From Methylococcales bacterium (GTDB taxonomy: Bacteria > Pseudomonadota > Gammaproteobacteria > Methylococcales > Methylomonadaceae), in assembly GCA_028713055.1 (NCBI GenBank), contig JAQTOX010000012.1, forward strand, positions 1-36,225: 36,225 bases of DNA. The letters run 5' to 3'. Below, one piece after another: positions 1 to 35,495 of this stretch. The position numbers and the translations under genes are program-made. The notes under the pieces are model-generated. The model searched no databases. It saw nothing but the letters and a program-made list of their open reading frames with translations, and was not told where the DNA came from. How positions within the stretch are numbered: position 1 is the first letter of the stretch; every line of letters starts with the position of its first letter.

Positions 1-1132
1 GATAAAGCTGCAACGCTAAACCAAAGAAAAATGAAAAATTGGCTTCCGTTTGATTATAAGGTGTCGCTTTGACCGCTTTAGGCTTTCCAAAATTACCTGA
101 ACCTGCCCAATAACGTGAGTCAAAAGCTGTTTTAACTAAATCGTTATAAGTCGTTTTTAAGCCTTTACCCGATTTCTCTCTAAGATTTGATAATACGCTA
201 TCTTGGGCGTGAATTTCTTGAGTTGCTAATGGTTTGCGTGAAAGTAATTTGCGTCCAAGATCGGGAAATGCGCGTTGCGTACAAGACATTTCAGAATCGT
301 TCAAAGGTGGCGCAACCGCTTGTGACGCAAGCGACGCATTTTCTAAACTTATTTTTTGTTTAACTGTTTTGCCATCTTGCTGGGTAATCCAAATTCCCGC
401 CTTAACATCACGATCGCCAAATGCTGAAACACCGTTGAAATTATTATTAGCACGCCCATCCCAAAAATTACGGAAGTTGAAACCAGCGTTAATAACGCTA
501 GGAGCCTGACGAGCTTGTACTTTTCGAGTGTTTAATGCGCCTGCGTGAAAAATAGCATCTTTTGTTGATACACAGTTGTCTTCGTTACTACCGGTTTGAT
601 TTTCGCCATTCACACGCCGCGAAAATACACCAGCCGATGCGACAACATCATCGCTACTAAATAAAACAGCCGAATCTTTATTTGTTGCGTCTGCCAGTTG
701 ATGAAAAGGAAAATCGCTAGTTTTAAGTGTGTAATTTATGCCGCCCTTTTCATTTGAAGCTGTTTTTTCAAATGTTTTACCTGTTTTTTGCTGATGTAAT
801 AAACCTGGGGATAATTGATTTTGCGTGCGGCTATCTGCGCCGGCATGAAAATGACAAGACGCACACGCGACATCACCACCACTACCAACGGCGGTATCCC
901 AAAACAATGCTTTACCGAGTTGAATTGCAGCGGTTTTATCCACCACAATTGGTGTATCACCATCAAGCAAACCAGGTGTTTGAGGCATTGCTACACCTTG
1001 TAAAGATCGTGGTGTATTGCCATGTGCGCTAACTTCACCCGAAAGAAATAATGTTAGAAAAAAAATTTCCAATGGCAAAGCTAAAACGCCTGAATCTTTA
1101 ATTTTTGTTAAAAATTGGCGATTTCTGTTCAT
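1..1132 (-). CDS. corB: Di-heme cytochrome c peroxidase family protein (CorB/SACCP-like), 3' end cut by window edge
   Basis: Open minus-strand frame from ATG at 1132 to the window edge: MNRNRQFLTKIKDSGVLALPLEIFFLTLFLSGEVSAHGNTPRSLQGVAMPQTPGLLDGDTPIVVDKTAAIQLGKALFWDTAVGSGGDVACASCHFHAG... It contains a CxxCH heme motif and MauG/CCP-like 'LGKALFWD..VGS....CASCH'. Directly downstream of the CorA-like gene. Absent from the ORF track because its stop lies outside the window. Confidence 0.85.
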   Translation of the reverse strand, partial: MNRNRQFLTKIKDSGVLALPLEIFFLTLFLSGEVSAHGNTPRSLQGVAMPQTPGLLDGDTPIVVDKTAAIQLGKALFWDTAVGSGGDVACASCHFHAGADSRTQNQLSPGLLHQQKTGKTFEKTASNEKGGINYTLKTSDFPFHQLADATNKDSAVLFSSDDVVASAGVFSRRVNGENQTGSNEDNCVSTKDAIFHAGALNTRKVQARQAPSVINAGFNFRNFWDGRANNNFNGVSAFGDRDVKAGIWITQQDGKTVKQKISLENASLASQAVAPPLNDSEMSCTQRAFPDLGRKLLSRKPLATQEIHAQDSVLSNLREKSGKGLKTTYNDLVKTAFDSRYWAGSGNFGKPKAVKATPYNQTEANFSFFFGLALQLY

Positions 1133-1224
1133 GAGTGATACCTACTGCGGTTATTTTGAGTTTTTATGCTGCATAAAAAAACATCCGCCGTAATAGTAAA
1201 TTACGGACGGATGTAGGAAGAAAA

Positions 1225-1878
1225 TTATTTAACAGTTACCTTAACATTGACGTTGTGTAACGCTTTGAGAGCTTCTGCATCATCGGTTATGTTAGCATCG
1301 GGATTAAAACCACCAACCACAAACATGTAAGTACCTGCATAAGGTGCTTTAAAAGTCAGTGTTAATTTACCCGCAACATTATCTTTTTTACCTTTCAACG
1401 CCGCATCTGTCACCGTATTTTTGTCTAAGTCATAACCATGCGTGACATATTTCATGATGATGTTACCCAATTTAGTTCCATCGCCTTCGTCCGTCGCACC
1501 GAATTTAGCAAAATTGGCGTTTTGTGGATAAAAGTGATCGACTACATAATTATCTGGTGCGGTATCATTATCACCACGATACCAAACCGTGCTACCTGGA
1601 TGAATTCCTTTATCGGCGGCTGTCATCACAATTGTCACCGTCTGACCTTTTTCAGCCGTGAACGTACCCCAATCAGAGCTATGTGTCCAACCCATATCAC
1701 CAAATGCTGGATCGCTCCAGCCTTTGGCTTTTACTGTAAAAACATCACTGGTAACAACTTTACTGAACGCAGCGATGCCTTCAGGAATTGTTGCGGCATG
1801 ACTCATAGAAACTGCCATCAAACTGGTCGCAACTACAGATGCAAAATGACCTAGAACCTTATTACTAATTTTCATCAT
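1225..1878 (-). CDS. corA: CorA/MopE-like copper-repressible surface copper-binding protein
   Basis: 217 aa with signal peptide (MKISNKVLGHFASVVATSLMAVSMSHA) and 'WSDPAFGDMGWTHSSDWGTFTAEKGQTVTI'. Adjacent to a cytochrome c peroxidase gene, as in methanotroph corA/mopE loci. Not the Mg2+ transporter CorA. Confidence 0.78.
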   Translation of the reverse strand: MMKISNKVLGHFASVVATSLMAVSMSHAATIPEGIAAFSKVVTSDVFTVKAKGWSDPAFGDMGWTHSSDWGTFTAEKGQTVTIVMTAADKGIHPGSTVWYRGDNDTAPDNYVVDHFYPQNANFAKFGATDEGDGTKLGNIIMKYVTHGYDLDKNTVTDAALKGKKDNVAGKLTLTFKAPYAGTYMFVVGGFNPDANITDDAEALKALHNVNVKVTVK

Positions 1879-1944: not shown

Positions 1945-1991
1945 AAAAAAACATCGTGTTGCCTGTAAGCTTTAGCGAAAGCTGTGCCACG
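1945..1991 (-). promoter_or_regulatory. Leader hairpin plus U-tract upstream of corA (candidate attenuator or 5'UTR element)
   Basis: Minus strand CGTGgcacAGCTTTcgctAAAGCTtacaggcaaCACG followed within 4 nt by TTTTTTT, about 70-110 nt before the corA ATG. Confidence 0.4.
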
Positions 1992-2078
1992 AAAATTAGT
2001 TGTTATTTTTCAAATGATTAAATTTAAAACTACATGATACGAGAAAATGAGGCAGGGGATATGCCATAATAAAAACAA

Positions 2079-2116
2079 GGCATTAAGTGAAATGCCGCAT
2101 TTAATATGCGGCATTT
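2079..2116. terminator. Hairpin terminator between MCP and corA, with an overlapping alternative stem
   Basis: ATGCCGCAT-TTAAT-ATGCGGCAT-TTTT at 2092-2118; GGCATT...AATGCC (2079-2096) shares one arm. Confidence 0.55.
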
Positions 2117-2127
2117 TTAAATGAAAA

Positions 2128-23740: not shown

Positions 23741-24568
23741 TTATTTGTTTTGCAAATGTTCGAGCAAACCTTTGTAGTATTCAAGCATTTGCATCAAAAA
23801 CGCAATCGCGACATCAATTTCGTTTTTAATATCGTGTACAAAATTGTGGTGCATAAACGTTTCCATCGTGTAAAACGACAATCCCATGTAAATCGTATTT
23901 AAACCCATTGCAATCATAATGAATGCCGCTAACTTGAGCATCAAACCACGGAAATTTGCGTGCATTTTGCCAAAAGCCACGCTAATAAACAGCATCGTCG
24001 GCAACGTTCCCGCGCCGAATGTTAGCATCAGCAAACCACCGTCTAAAATGGTCGGGGCAGAAGTCGCTTTCACTGCCATTGCAAACGTCAATGGACAAGG
24101 CATTAAACCATTCATCAATCCGGCGAGCGATGCGCCAATAATTCCCCCTTTCGTGCGTGAGGCGGCGTAACCTTTACGAATAAATACCATTGGAATCAGA
24201 CGAATCGAGCCTTGAAATGGAATCCATCCCAAAATACCAAACGCCAAAATAATTACTACTGCACCAATGAACATTTGCAAAATACTTTGTACTTTGCCGA
24301 AAATTCCACTTGAAACCAAAACAACACCTAATGCCGCCGCTGCAAAACCTACCATGGTATAAACACTGATTCGGGCGAATTGGTAAAACAAATAAGGTAA
24401 ATAACTGCGTGTTGCAGTCGAATTCATAAAATAACCCGATACCAACGCACCACACATTCCTAAACAATGCCCACTACCAAGCATTCCCGCCATAAACGCC
24501 AAGCCATAATCGAAACCACCTGATGCTGCCATGACGTGCATACTGTGATCCATTGTTGAATGATCCAT
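23741..24568 (-). CDS. TauE/SafE (UreH/DsbD_2-like) family membrane protein with His/Met-rich N-terminus
   Basis: MDHSTMDHSMHVMAASGGFDYGLAFMAGMLGSGHCLGMCGALVSGYF...GLMNGLMPCPLTFAM. Confidence 0.88.
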   Translation of the reverse strand: MDHSTMDHSMHVMAASGGFDYGLAFMAGMLGSGHCLGMCGALVSGYFMNSTATRSYLPYLFYQFARISVYTMVGFAAAALGVVLVSSGIFGKVQSILQMFIGAVVIILAFGILGWIPFQGSIRLIPMVFIRKGYAASRTKGGIIGASLAGLMNGLMPCPLTFAMAVKATSAPTILDGGLLMLTFGAGTLPTMLFISVAFGKMHANFRGLMLKLAAFIMIAMGLNTIYMGLSFYTMETFMHHNFVHDIKNEIDVAIAFLMQMLEYYKGLLEHLQNK

Positions 24569-27942: not shown

Positions 27943-29037
27943 ATGCGAAGTTCAGACATTACGATTATCGGTGGTGGCGTGATGGGATTGATGACGGCAC
28001 GCGAATTTTTGAACGCTGGCGCGTCCGTCACCATTTTAGAAAAAAATCTTTGCGGACAAGAAGCCTCGTGGGCTGGCGGCGGCATTTTATCGCCACTTTA
28101 TCCGTGGCGACAAGCACAATCAATCACGGATTTGGTGTTGCCGAGTTTGGAACGTTATCCAAAAATTGCCGCAGATTTACACGAAAAAACGGGCATTGAT
28201 CCCGAATGGACGCGGAGTGGTTTACTGGTTACACAAAATCCCGACGACATATTGGCGCGTGAATGGTGTAGAAATTCGAAACTCAACGTCGAAAACCCTG
28301 ACGCCGCAACGTTTCAAAATTTAAACGTACGCACTGAAAATCCGATTTTTTTGCCAGCAATTGCACAAATTCGTAATCCACGTTTGTTACAAGCCTTGAA
28401 ACAAGATGTGTTAAACAAAGGTTTGTACTTAATTGAAAATTGCGAAATCACAAGTTTTACGCTTGAACACAATCGCATTTATCACCTGCATTCAAACCGT
28501 GGCAAATTTCCCGTGAACGAAATCGTGCTAACAACAGGAGCATGGACACGGTCAATTTTTCAGACACTTTTGATTGGACTGCTCGATATGCCAGAAATTT
28601 ATCCAGCAAAAGGACAAATGTTGTTATTCGGCGCGCCACCAGACACGTTACGACACATTATTTTGGATGGTGATCGCTATTTAATTCCACGTCGTGACGG
28701 AAAAATTATTGTGGGCAGTACGGTTGAACACGATGTTTTTCATAAAACGATTACCGTTGATGCACATAACCTACTTTTTGAATTTGCAACGGCATTATTG
28801 CCTGCATTGAAAACTGCACCTCTGCTTAAACATTGGGCGGGATTGAGACCTGCGACGGATGATGGTGTGCCGTATATTGGGCGGCATCCTGAAATTCACA
28901 ATTTAAATTTAAATGCGGGACATTTTCGCAACGGCTTAACGATGTCACCCGCGTCAGCGCAATTATTAGCAGATTTAATTTTGAATCGCCCAACAACCGT
29001 GAATCCTAAACCTTACCAATTTCATCCTTGTACATGA
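27943..29037 (+). CDS. thiO: Glycine oxidase ThiO
   Basis: ITIIGGGVMGLMTAREFLNAGASVTILEKNLCGQEASWAGGGILSPLYPW...GLRPATDDGVPYIGRHP...NAGHFRNGLTMSPASAQLLADLI. Confidence 0.93.
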   Translation: MRSSDITIIGGGVMGLMTAREFLNAGASVTILEKNLCGQEASWAGGGILSPLYPWRQAQSITDLVLPSLERYPKIAADLHEKTGIDPEWTRSGLLVTQNPDDILAREWCRNSKLNVENPDAATFQNLNVRTENPIFLPAIAQIRNPRLLQALKQDVLNKGLYLIENCEITSFTLEHNRIYHLHSNRGKFPVNEIVLTTGAWTRSIFQTLLIGLLDMPEIYPAKGQMLLFGAPPDTLRHIILDGDRYLIPRRDGKIIVGSTVEHDVFHKTITVDAHNLLFEFATALLPALKTAPLLKHWAGLRPATDDGVPYIGRHPEIHNLNLNAGHFRNGLTMSPASAQLLADLILNRPTTVNPKPYQFHPCT

Positions 29038-29044
29038 CAAAAAA

Positions 29045-29572
29045 TTAACTTTTTTCAATAAATTTCAATGTCCGTTCTGGCAAAATCTCTTTTGTTTCAC
29101 CTTCTAAATATAGCCGTGCATCTTCGTGAACCGTGGACATAAAACGGATTAACTGAATTTCGCGGCGCATTTTTTCTTCAAATTCTGTGGTTTCCCACAT
29201 CTCATTGAGTAAATATTTCGCGTGGTGATGAATGGTGAAGGCAATCGCTTCGGGCAAATGCGTATAACTGCTTTGAATGGAATGTTTAAGCTGGTCTAAC
29301 GAGGCGAGATATTGTTTATAATCTTTAACATCTTGTTTGCATTTGGTTTTAAACATCAACAATTCTGCGGTGTGCTGCGTTTGTAAGATTGTTAATTCAT
29401 GTTTTAACTGCTGACTGCGTTTTTTGAGTTCGGCGATTAAGGCTTTTTCGGCTAAAACTTGTGCCTGTTTTAACGCGGCTTGTTGTTCTTGATTATCGCG
29501 TTTCCACGTCAAATTTTCGGTTTTGAGCGAGTGAATCGTGGTGACGATATTTAAAAGCCAATCTTTCAACAT
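29045..29572 (-). CDS. Hypothetical coiled-coil protein
   Basis: 175 aa, long Q/K/E-rich heptad-like region; 2 nt after the upstream ORF stop. Confidence 0.75.
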   Translation of the reverse strand: MLKDWLLNIVTTIHSLKTENLTWKRDNQEQQAALKQAQVLAEKALIAELKKRSQQLKHELTILQTQHTAELLMFKTKCKQDVKDYKQYLASLDQLKHSIQSSYTHLPEAIAFTIHHHAKYLLNEMWETTEFEEKMRREIQLIRFMSTVHEDARLYLEGETKEILPERTLKFIEKS

Positions 29573-33503: not shown

Positions 33504-35495
33504 CTACTCCATCTTCAAATTTGTACGTTTTTCATTAGTTATCTGACGTAGAGGCAGCATAGCGTTTACGATTCCCAATCCTAGCCCACTTGAACTAAGT
33601 AATAAAGCGGTGATGATACTGATATGCAAAGTGAAGGCAGAAATAATTGTTACTGCGCCAGGAACAACATTGAAAATCCAGCCATTTTGTAAGTTTTTGT
33701 CTAGTTCGTGTGCGAGGACGAGTAATTCATCCAATTTTTTTAGCGAACCATCCATTAAGATAATTTGTGCCGTATCTGTCGCAACTGACGTTGCACCACT
33801 CAATGAAATAGAAATATTCGCTTTTTTCATCGCAATCGTATCGTTGACACCATCGCCAATAAAACAAACCTTATGCCCTTCCATTTGTAATTTTTCTACG
33901 ATTTCTGCTTTATTTTGCGGCAAAACATCATAAAAATAATCATCCATTCCTAATTTGTGAGCTAATTTTTGCGTAGGTTCGCGATGATCCCCAGAAACAA
34001 TAGCAAGATGTCTGACACCGCGCTTGCGTAAATTCGCCAGTAATTCAAAAACTTCTGGACGCACAGAGGCACGCATTTCTAATACACCTGCAAATTGCTT
34101 ATCAATAGCGAGCATAACTAACGAATGTCCAGAATGATAAGCGTCTTCCATTTGTTCATCTAAATTTTCAGGTACGCTAATCCCTTCTTTTTCCATAAAA
34201 CGTCGGCTACCCACTCGAATAAGTTTGTTTTCTATGTGAACAGCTATTCCATAACCAAGACTGTAATCGGAGTCATTAACTTCAGGTAAAATCACGCCTG
34301 CTTTCACCGCACGATTTAAAATAGCGCGAGCAATTGGGTGTTGTAATTTAGCTTCAGCGGCAGCGGCAAACGCTAAAATATCATTTTCGCTGTAGCCTGT
34401 TAAATAAACCCAAATACGTCCAACTTCAGGCACTTCAGAGGTTAACGTTCCTGTTTTATCAAATAAAAACGTATCTATATCAGACAAATCTTCTAGTACC
34501 CGCCCATCTTTAACTAAAATGCCCTTGTGGGCTGCAAGATTAAGATAATTCAGAGTGCTTAATGGTGCAATAATTCGGATATTTTGGGCAATATGTCCAT
34601 TTAAAATAACGACAGTCCCTACCGCGCCAAGCCAGGGCATTGCAGCAAAAGCCAGACCTAATACGGGTAAGTTCCAGTTGTCCGCCCATTGCTCCCCTTT
34701 AAGCTGCGAATGCGTTTTAAAATCAACCGAGTGATTTAGAATGTCCGTAATTTTAGCGACCGTCGTATCGCTTCCAGAATTTTCTGCTTGAACATGAATG
34801 CGTCCTGACATTACCTGTGTTGATGCAAAAACGGTATCACCCAGCATTTTTTCTGCGGGTTGCGACTCTCCTGTTAACGTATGTTGATCAACAGTAGCCA
34901 TTCCCAGAATGACGATGCCATCAATTGGGATAACATCTCCCGTATTTATAACAACAATATCCCCCCGAACAACTTCATCTAAGGGTACTTCGATTTCTAT
35001 ACCGTCTTTTAATAACCACACATGATTAGGTTGTTCTGCAAAAATGTTGATGACACTTTGCTTAGAATTTTGTTTAGCATTACTGATAACAAATTTCGCA
35101 CCGTGAACCAATCCCACACCAATTGAAGCAGTCACAATACTTCCCAGTCCCAATGTCATCATATCTGCAATGCCATAGAGTACATAACCATCGACTTTTT
35201 TTTCTTTAACTAAAGAATTTTCAACAAGACGAAGATAAGGAATGGACGTGTAGGTGAAACCTAATAACGTTGGTAGCAAAAATATCGGATTCACATGTGT
35301 CAAAACCGCTGAACCGATAGATAACCCGCTCATTTTTATGTAATGTAAATCTTTTTCACGCTCGCGCTCGTCATCTTCCATAACATCTTGGACAAGCATT
35401 ACAGACCGATTTTCTTCAGTTTTCTTTCCGATTTTTTCATACAGTCTAGTTGCTGCATAGCTAGCAAAAACAACTTCAAGCCCAAATAAAAACAT
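33504..35495 (-). CDS. P-type ATPase, P1B-like but lacking the CPC metal motif
   Basis: 663 aa; TGES, FLFDKTGTLT, HP (QHPIARAI), IGDGVNDTIAMKKA. The segment before DKTGT reads AQNIRIIAPLSTLNYLNLAAHKGILVKDGRVLE. Confidence 0.9.
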   Translation of the reverse strand: MFLFGLEVVFASYAATRLYEKIGKKTEENRSVMLVQDVMEDDEREREKDLHYIKMSGLSIGSAVLTHVNPIFLLPTLLGFTYTSIPYLRLVENSLVKEKKVDGYVLYGIADMMTLGLGSIVTASIGVGLVHGAKFVISNAKQNSKQSVINIFAEQPNHVWLLKDGIEIEVPLDEVVRGDIVVINTGDVIPIDGIVILGMATVDQHTLTGESQPAEKMLGDTVFASTQVMSGRIHVQAENSGSDTTVAKITDILNHSVDFKTHSQLKGEQWADNWNLPVLGLAFAAMPWLGAVGTVVILNGHIAQNIRIIAPLSTLNYLNLAAHKGILVKDGRVLEDLSDIDTFLFDKTGTLTSEVPEVGRIWVYLTGYSENDILAFAAAAEAKLQHPIARAILNRAVKAGVILPEVNDSDYSLGYGIAVHIENKLIRVGSRRFMEKEGISVPENLDEQMEDAYHSGHSLVMLAIDKQFAGVLEMRASVRPEVFELLANLRKRGVRHLAIVSGDHREPTQKLAHKLGMDDYFYDVLPQNKAEIVEKLQMEGHKVCFIGDGVNDTIAMKKANISISLSGATSVATDTAQIILMDGSLKKLDELLVLAHELDKNLQNGWIFNVVPGAVTIISAFTLHISIITALLLSSSGLGLGIVNAMLPLRQITNEKRTNLKME

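Follow-up and report, generated by a model that had tools for sequence, protein, structure and literature searches.

Copper determines the methane monooxygenase on which a methanotroph relies. The first letter of the window, the whole stretch of 36,225 nucleotides analyzed here, is base 1 of contig C77, which belongs to a Methylococcales genome (2.67 Mb in 188 contigs). At its left edge the window encodes an exported protein followed by a piece of a heme peroxidase. This raises the question whether the two genes are a genuine copy of the copper-scavenging pair corA-corB known from methanotrophs and, if so, how the pair is switched on and what makes the kynurenine of its copper site. The genome encodes both types of methane monooxygenase (one match to PF02461, pMMO, and an sMMO cluster); shortly upstream of the sMMO cluster lies a multicopper-oxidase-like gene (L094:6952-8754, plus strand).

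The protein-coding locus is a genuine copy of the known gene pair, and the reading of the initial annotation as corA-corB is supported. We hold it to be highly probable that it is the copper-acquisition operon of a gammaproteobacterial methanotroph with pMMO and sMMO, sigma-54-activated and encoding a CorB-modified Cu(I) capture protein. The part that looks new is the sigma-54 switch before corA, which is conserved and also stands before other metal-uptake genes.

The corA-corB locus

1225-1878, minus strand: corA, putative exported Cu(I)-binding protein of the CorA family, 217 amino acids (PF18252, PDB 4bz4, AF2 and Foldseek)
1-1132, minus strand: N-terminal half of corB, 377 amino acids, fragment of a heme peroxidase (CCP_MauG, PF03150, E = 6e-17)
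28231-29214 of contig C102, outside the window, minus strand: C-terminal half of corB with CAVCH and a MauG-type axial Tyr, assigned by homology

The exported protein, with W64-T-H66, H93 and H115 at the positions given in the initial annotation, carries a signal peptide. A match to CorA and MopE by profile and by structure had been expected, and both were obtained. The Pfam profile PF18252 (Cu_bind_CorA) was matched with E = 1e-34 and 120.2 bits (cut-off 27), and a sequence search of the PDB gave CorA (4bz4) at E = 4e-31 and MopE (2vov) second at 0.0013. The AF2 model, based on a 33-sequence alignment (pLDDT 90), has the beta-sandwich fold of CorA and MopE, with 4bz4 as best Foldseek match (E = 7.5e-19, TM 0.75-0.83) and 2vov as second (E = 5.7e-12); weak beta-sandwich look-alikes further down the list were disregarded. 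Like CorA/CorB of Methylomicrobium album BG8 (4bz4, PF18252), the locus combines this fold with Trp-x-His, a second His, a signal peptide and the order corA-corB, but the protein is only about 36% identical to BG8 CorA and its Pfam score (120 bits vs more than 220 bits for classical CorA) places it in a diverged sub-group. D150, D152 and D166 are invariant and may form a calcium site. The source genome has one copy of corA. G147, a searched genome of the same genus, has none, which counts against the main reading.

In the frames of the window, corB lies directly downstream of corA on the same strand. It had been proposed that corB was missed because it runs off the window. The frame does run off the left edge, but that edge is also a contig end: since the window begins at base 1 of C77, it is the assembly itself, and more than the choice of window, that interrupts corB. 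Among the contigs of the genome, the C-terminal half was found to reach the last bases of C102. A complete relative, CorB of L042, finds two pieces in the source genome, the window fragment with 70% and the C102 piece (matched over 28234-29214) with 76% identity; about 10 residues are missing between them, where L042 has QQTLISDQTP, and the halves are joined by homology only, across the assembly gap. A complete corB with two heme motifs had been anticipated, and the halves carry CASCH (residue 90, window 851-865) and CAVCH (residue 33 of the C102 half), respectively. Because the half with the second CxxCH was located at the end of C102, CorB is taken to be di-heme, as are its relatives of about 710 residues unless truncated; the relatives have 700-830 amino acids, mostly 700-770, and nearly all have two CxxCH. 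This agrees with the CorB/SACCP type, which has two widely spaced CxxCH in about 700 amino acids.

PF18252 is matched in 41 of the 151 genomes of the order-level sample, and corB lies close to corA in 29 of the 31 corA-type loci whose flanks are long enough to tell. No nearby corB was found at L039, in a genome that carries a further corA-corB, or at L044, in which the Trp and both His of CorA are lost. The gene order had been likened to both corA-corB and mopE/SACCP. Only the first half of this comparison stands: Methylococcus-type genomes have corB first, then mopE, and since the SACCP gene precedes mopE in mopE loci, the order seen here is common to corA-corB only. MopE/SACCP of Methylococcus capsulatus Bath (2vov) shares the Kyn-His-His copper site, but MopE is much longer.

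Variants of the cluster were also seen. In L037, L067 and L071 a small exported protein with a single CxxCH (HPxY...CxDCHVG) is encoded between corA and corB, and in two of these three the second His of CorA is Val. One short contig of G048 carries three tandem corA-type genes (L035:709-3003), with further copies elsewhere in that genome.

The region upstream of corA and its candidate activator

1974-1989, minus strand: putative sigma-54 -24/-12 promoter of corA-corB, TGGCACAGCTTTCGCT, GG-N10-GC, with the corA ATG about 110 bp downstream
2050-2065, minus strand: copy 2 of the putative upstream activating dyad, GGCATATCCCCTGCCT (13.1 bits); from its start to the promoter GG are 77 bp
2081-2096, minus strand: copy 1 of the putative upstream activating dyad, GGCATTTCACTTAATG (8.7 bits), spaced 31 bp from the other copy
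2419-3378 of contig C106: candidate activator of 320 amino acids, no receiver domain (PF00158)

The regions upstream of corA resemble one another among relatives. They contain a 16-mer dyad (GtnATaTnaCatAnTt) twice per site, 29-31 or about 22 bp apart, and from the start of the downstream dyad it is 64-78 bp to the GG of a sigma-54 site of the -24/-12 type. Both copies in the window have the form GTNATATNAC. With a weight matrix made from the corA upstream regions of 15 relatives, the window left out, the dyad pair of the window scored 21.8 bits; among 340 slices of the window the runner-up reached -2.3. Loci not used for training scored 32.7 (L034), 35.7 (L071) and 25.0 bits (L069), and the corB-mopE operons L075-L079, which belong to another family and were likewise outside training, 13.7-25.6 bits. 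These operons of Methylococcus-type genomes have the same layout of paired dyads and sigma-54 site, but with the dyads 21 bp apart vs 31 here; L055, a near-identical BG8-type locus, shares the promoter layout of the window. Across 659 kb of loci, matches of at least 12 bits stand almost exclusively before corA or corB-mopE, and the reversed sequence contained none. The layout was not found immediately upstream of corA at L054, L056, L058, L060, L062 and L063. The sequence TGGCATATCCCCTGC was rejected as sigma-54 site, since it belongs to the dyad nearer to corA; the promoter lies 77 bp further on. A pattern search with six instead of seven spacer bases gave nothing useful. The hairpin terminator of the upstream chemoreceptor gene (window 2085-2118) overlaps copy 1.

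BG8 CorA and SACCP of M. capsulatus are copper-repressed (PMC3912023, PMC4831470). We infer that copper scarcity would lead an activator of the sigma-54 polymerase to bind the paired dyads and to turn on the -24/-12 promoter.

Nine proteins of the genome match PF00158 strongly. Guilt by association points to the 320-residue protein on C106 as the activator acting on this layout: it shares 59% identity with an activator whose gene adjoins corA in G077 (L063), the second copy in that genome. Activators of this type were found in 127 of the 151 genomes. Its neighbor in the source genome encodes a membrane protein of the DsbD_2 family that carries an HCIGMCG motif, and a similar HCIGMCG protein is encoded beside the activator in all four relatives inspected. 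A membrane protein with a His/Met-rich start and an HCLGMCG motif is also encoded in the window (23741-24568, minus strand); it looks like the DsbD_2 neighbor of the candidate activator and is possibly involved in copper handling.

It is rather unlikely that MmoR, the activator of the sMMO genes, controls the layout in place of the 320-residue protein, or that the dyads bind an unrelated repressor. An MmoR-like activator does adjoin sMMO (C75), and mmoX has a sigma-54 site as well as, on the reverse strand, one dyad of 13.9 bits, but this single dyad is all that a search for a clean shared pair before mmoX returned. BG8-type genomes, which are not known to encode sMMO, keep the corA layout (L055), and it is the 320-residue activator whose second copy stands next to corA in G077. 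A fixed placement 64-78 bp before the -24 element is typical of activator sites, not of repressor sites.

The predicted copper site and the possible source of its kynurenine

1687-1689, minus strand: W64, predicted kynurenine precursor, equivalent to Kyn62 of CorA (4bz4) by alignment, nearly invariant
1681-1683, minus strand: H66, predicted Cu(I) ligand, equivalent to H64 of CorA by alignment
1534-1536, minus strand: H115, predicted second His ligand of Cu(I), equivalent to H114 of CorA by alignment

In the phmmer alignment to 4bz4, W64, H66 and H115 fall exactly onto residues 62, 64 and 114. W64 and H66 had been proposed as the Trp(Kyn)-x-His part of the site, in agreement with this alignment. 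H93 and H115 had both been considered for the second His; it is H115, since this residue aligns with H114 of CorA, whereas H93, although invariant, pairs with H91, a non-ligand. Kyn62, H64 and H114 are the published copper-site residues of CorA, with Kyn62 only a second-sphere ligand, a point against the main reading. Among 35 CorA relatives, W64 is retained in 34, H66 in 33 and H115 in 32. The H115 position is changed alone in L037 and L071 and together with W64 and H66 in L044; CorA of L046 has Met in place of the first His.

By analogy to BG8 CorA, the protein would be exported to the cell surface. CorB, as a di-heme enzyme resembling MauG and MbnH, would oxidize W64 to kynurenine, and Kyn64, H66 and H115, as predicted by alignment, would form a Cu(I) site through which copper is captured for pMMO. 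Kynurenine made by such an enzyme has a precedent in Manesis et al. 2021 (PNAS, doi 10.1073/pnas.2100680118, cited in PMC9426467), which reportedly concerns MbnH acting on MbnP. MbnP/MbnH (6e1c) shares with the locus a Trp-derived kynurenine copper site (predicted here) and a MauG-like di-heme enzyme with axial Tyr, but MbnP belongs to another Pfam family (PF20243) and MbnH is shorter than CorB. A search of the source genome with PF20243, run without positive control, gave no match.

The best PDB match of the full-length CorB of L042 is 6e1c, deposited as 'Di-heme enzyme', which we take to be MbnH of Methylosinus trichosporium; the AF2 model of CorB was too weak to use (pLDDT 68). Residues 577-614 of L042 CorB align with residues 259-296 of MauG by phmmer, and because this alignment is gap-free, Y612 sits on MauG residue 294, its axial Tyr. 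All 34 CorB rows that extend over this column have Tyr there, including Y225 of the C-terminal half of the source genome. Classical di-heme peroxidases have a Met ligand at this position. MauG, which acts on methylamine dehydrogenase, is likewise di-heme with an axial Tyr (Tyr294) and modifies protein tryptophan, but it cross-links two Trp into TTQ, and its substrate and genes are unrelated.

CorB as the maker of the kynurenine is still unproven (PMC3912023). A corB-type knockout of M. alcaliphilum grew, and grew faster, on methane, so that CorB is possibly dispensable; the authors of that mutant suggested that the oxidation is non-enzymatic (quoted in PMC3912023). CorB would then be an ordinary H2O2-removing di-heme peroxidase, in line with its matches to classical peroxidases in the PDB, and the kynurenine of CorA would arise by copper/reactive-oxygen chemistry. 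We consider this unlikely, given the axial Tyr in place of Met in all 34 covering rows, MbnH as best match and the tight linkage of corB to corA; moreover, L044, with the CorA-type copy that lacks the Trp and both His, has no adjacent corB. Very improbable is a diverged paralogue that lost copper binding and serves, for example, S-layer attachment: its Pfam score is below that of classical CorA, S-layer roles have been proposed (PMC11784148) and ligands are lost in L037, L071 and L044, but none of the three ligands is lost here or in the great majority of the sub-group, corB is retained and this is the sole corA of the genome.

A possible metal-starvation regulon

The dyad and sigma-54 pattern was found in 82 of the 151 genomes in an order-wide search, vs one match to the reversed pattern; many of these matches may be ordinary sigma-54 promoters, because the reversed control does not preserve sigma-54 sites. 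Among 20 loci chosen by eye for good dyads, and therefore enriched by choice and no census, many strong pairs stand before metal-uptake-type genes:

L132-L134, L139, L144: ECF sigma and FecR (FecI/FecR) genes
L130, L136: TonB receptor genes
L131: heavy-metal P-type ATPase gene; similar in L137
L138:3210-3941, minus strand: GWTHTSNW protein without Pfam match, behind the strongest dyad/sigma-54 site (40.8 bits)
L138:848-2719, minus strand: CorB-like di-heme gene, after the GWTHTSNW gene

The GWTHTSNW protein is probably a cryptic CorA relative. The window also contains a P-type ATPase-like gene (33504-35495, minus strand; TGES, DKTGT), upstream of which no dyad/sigma-54 site above threshold was found.

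Tentatively, as a real possibility and a testable lead, we propose that paired GTNATATNAC dyads and a sigma-54 promoter mark a regulon for metal (probably copper) starvation that spans Methylococcales and has not been described before. This regulon would comprise corA-corB, corB-mopE, ECF-sigma/FecR/TonB-receptor genes and P-type ATPases, and would be driven by the receiver-less activator on C106, with the adjacent DsbD_2-family HCxGMCG membrane protein as possible copper-sensing partner. Putative sigma-54 promoters were mentioned for copper-responsive clusters of M. capsulatus (PMC4831470); the searchable literature, including that paper, does not mention the paired dyad site, nor does it describe how the surface copper system of gammaproteobacterial methanotrophs is switched on. 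For this switch-on the promoter architecture supplies concrete candidates, both for the site and for the activator, and with the corA-corB locus a diverged but complete case becomes available in which kynurenine formation by CorB can be tested.
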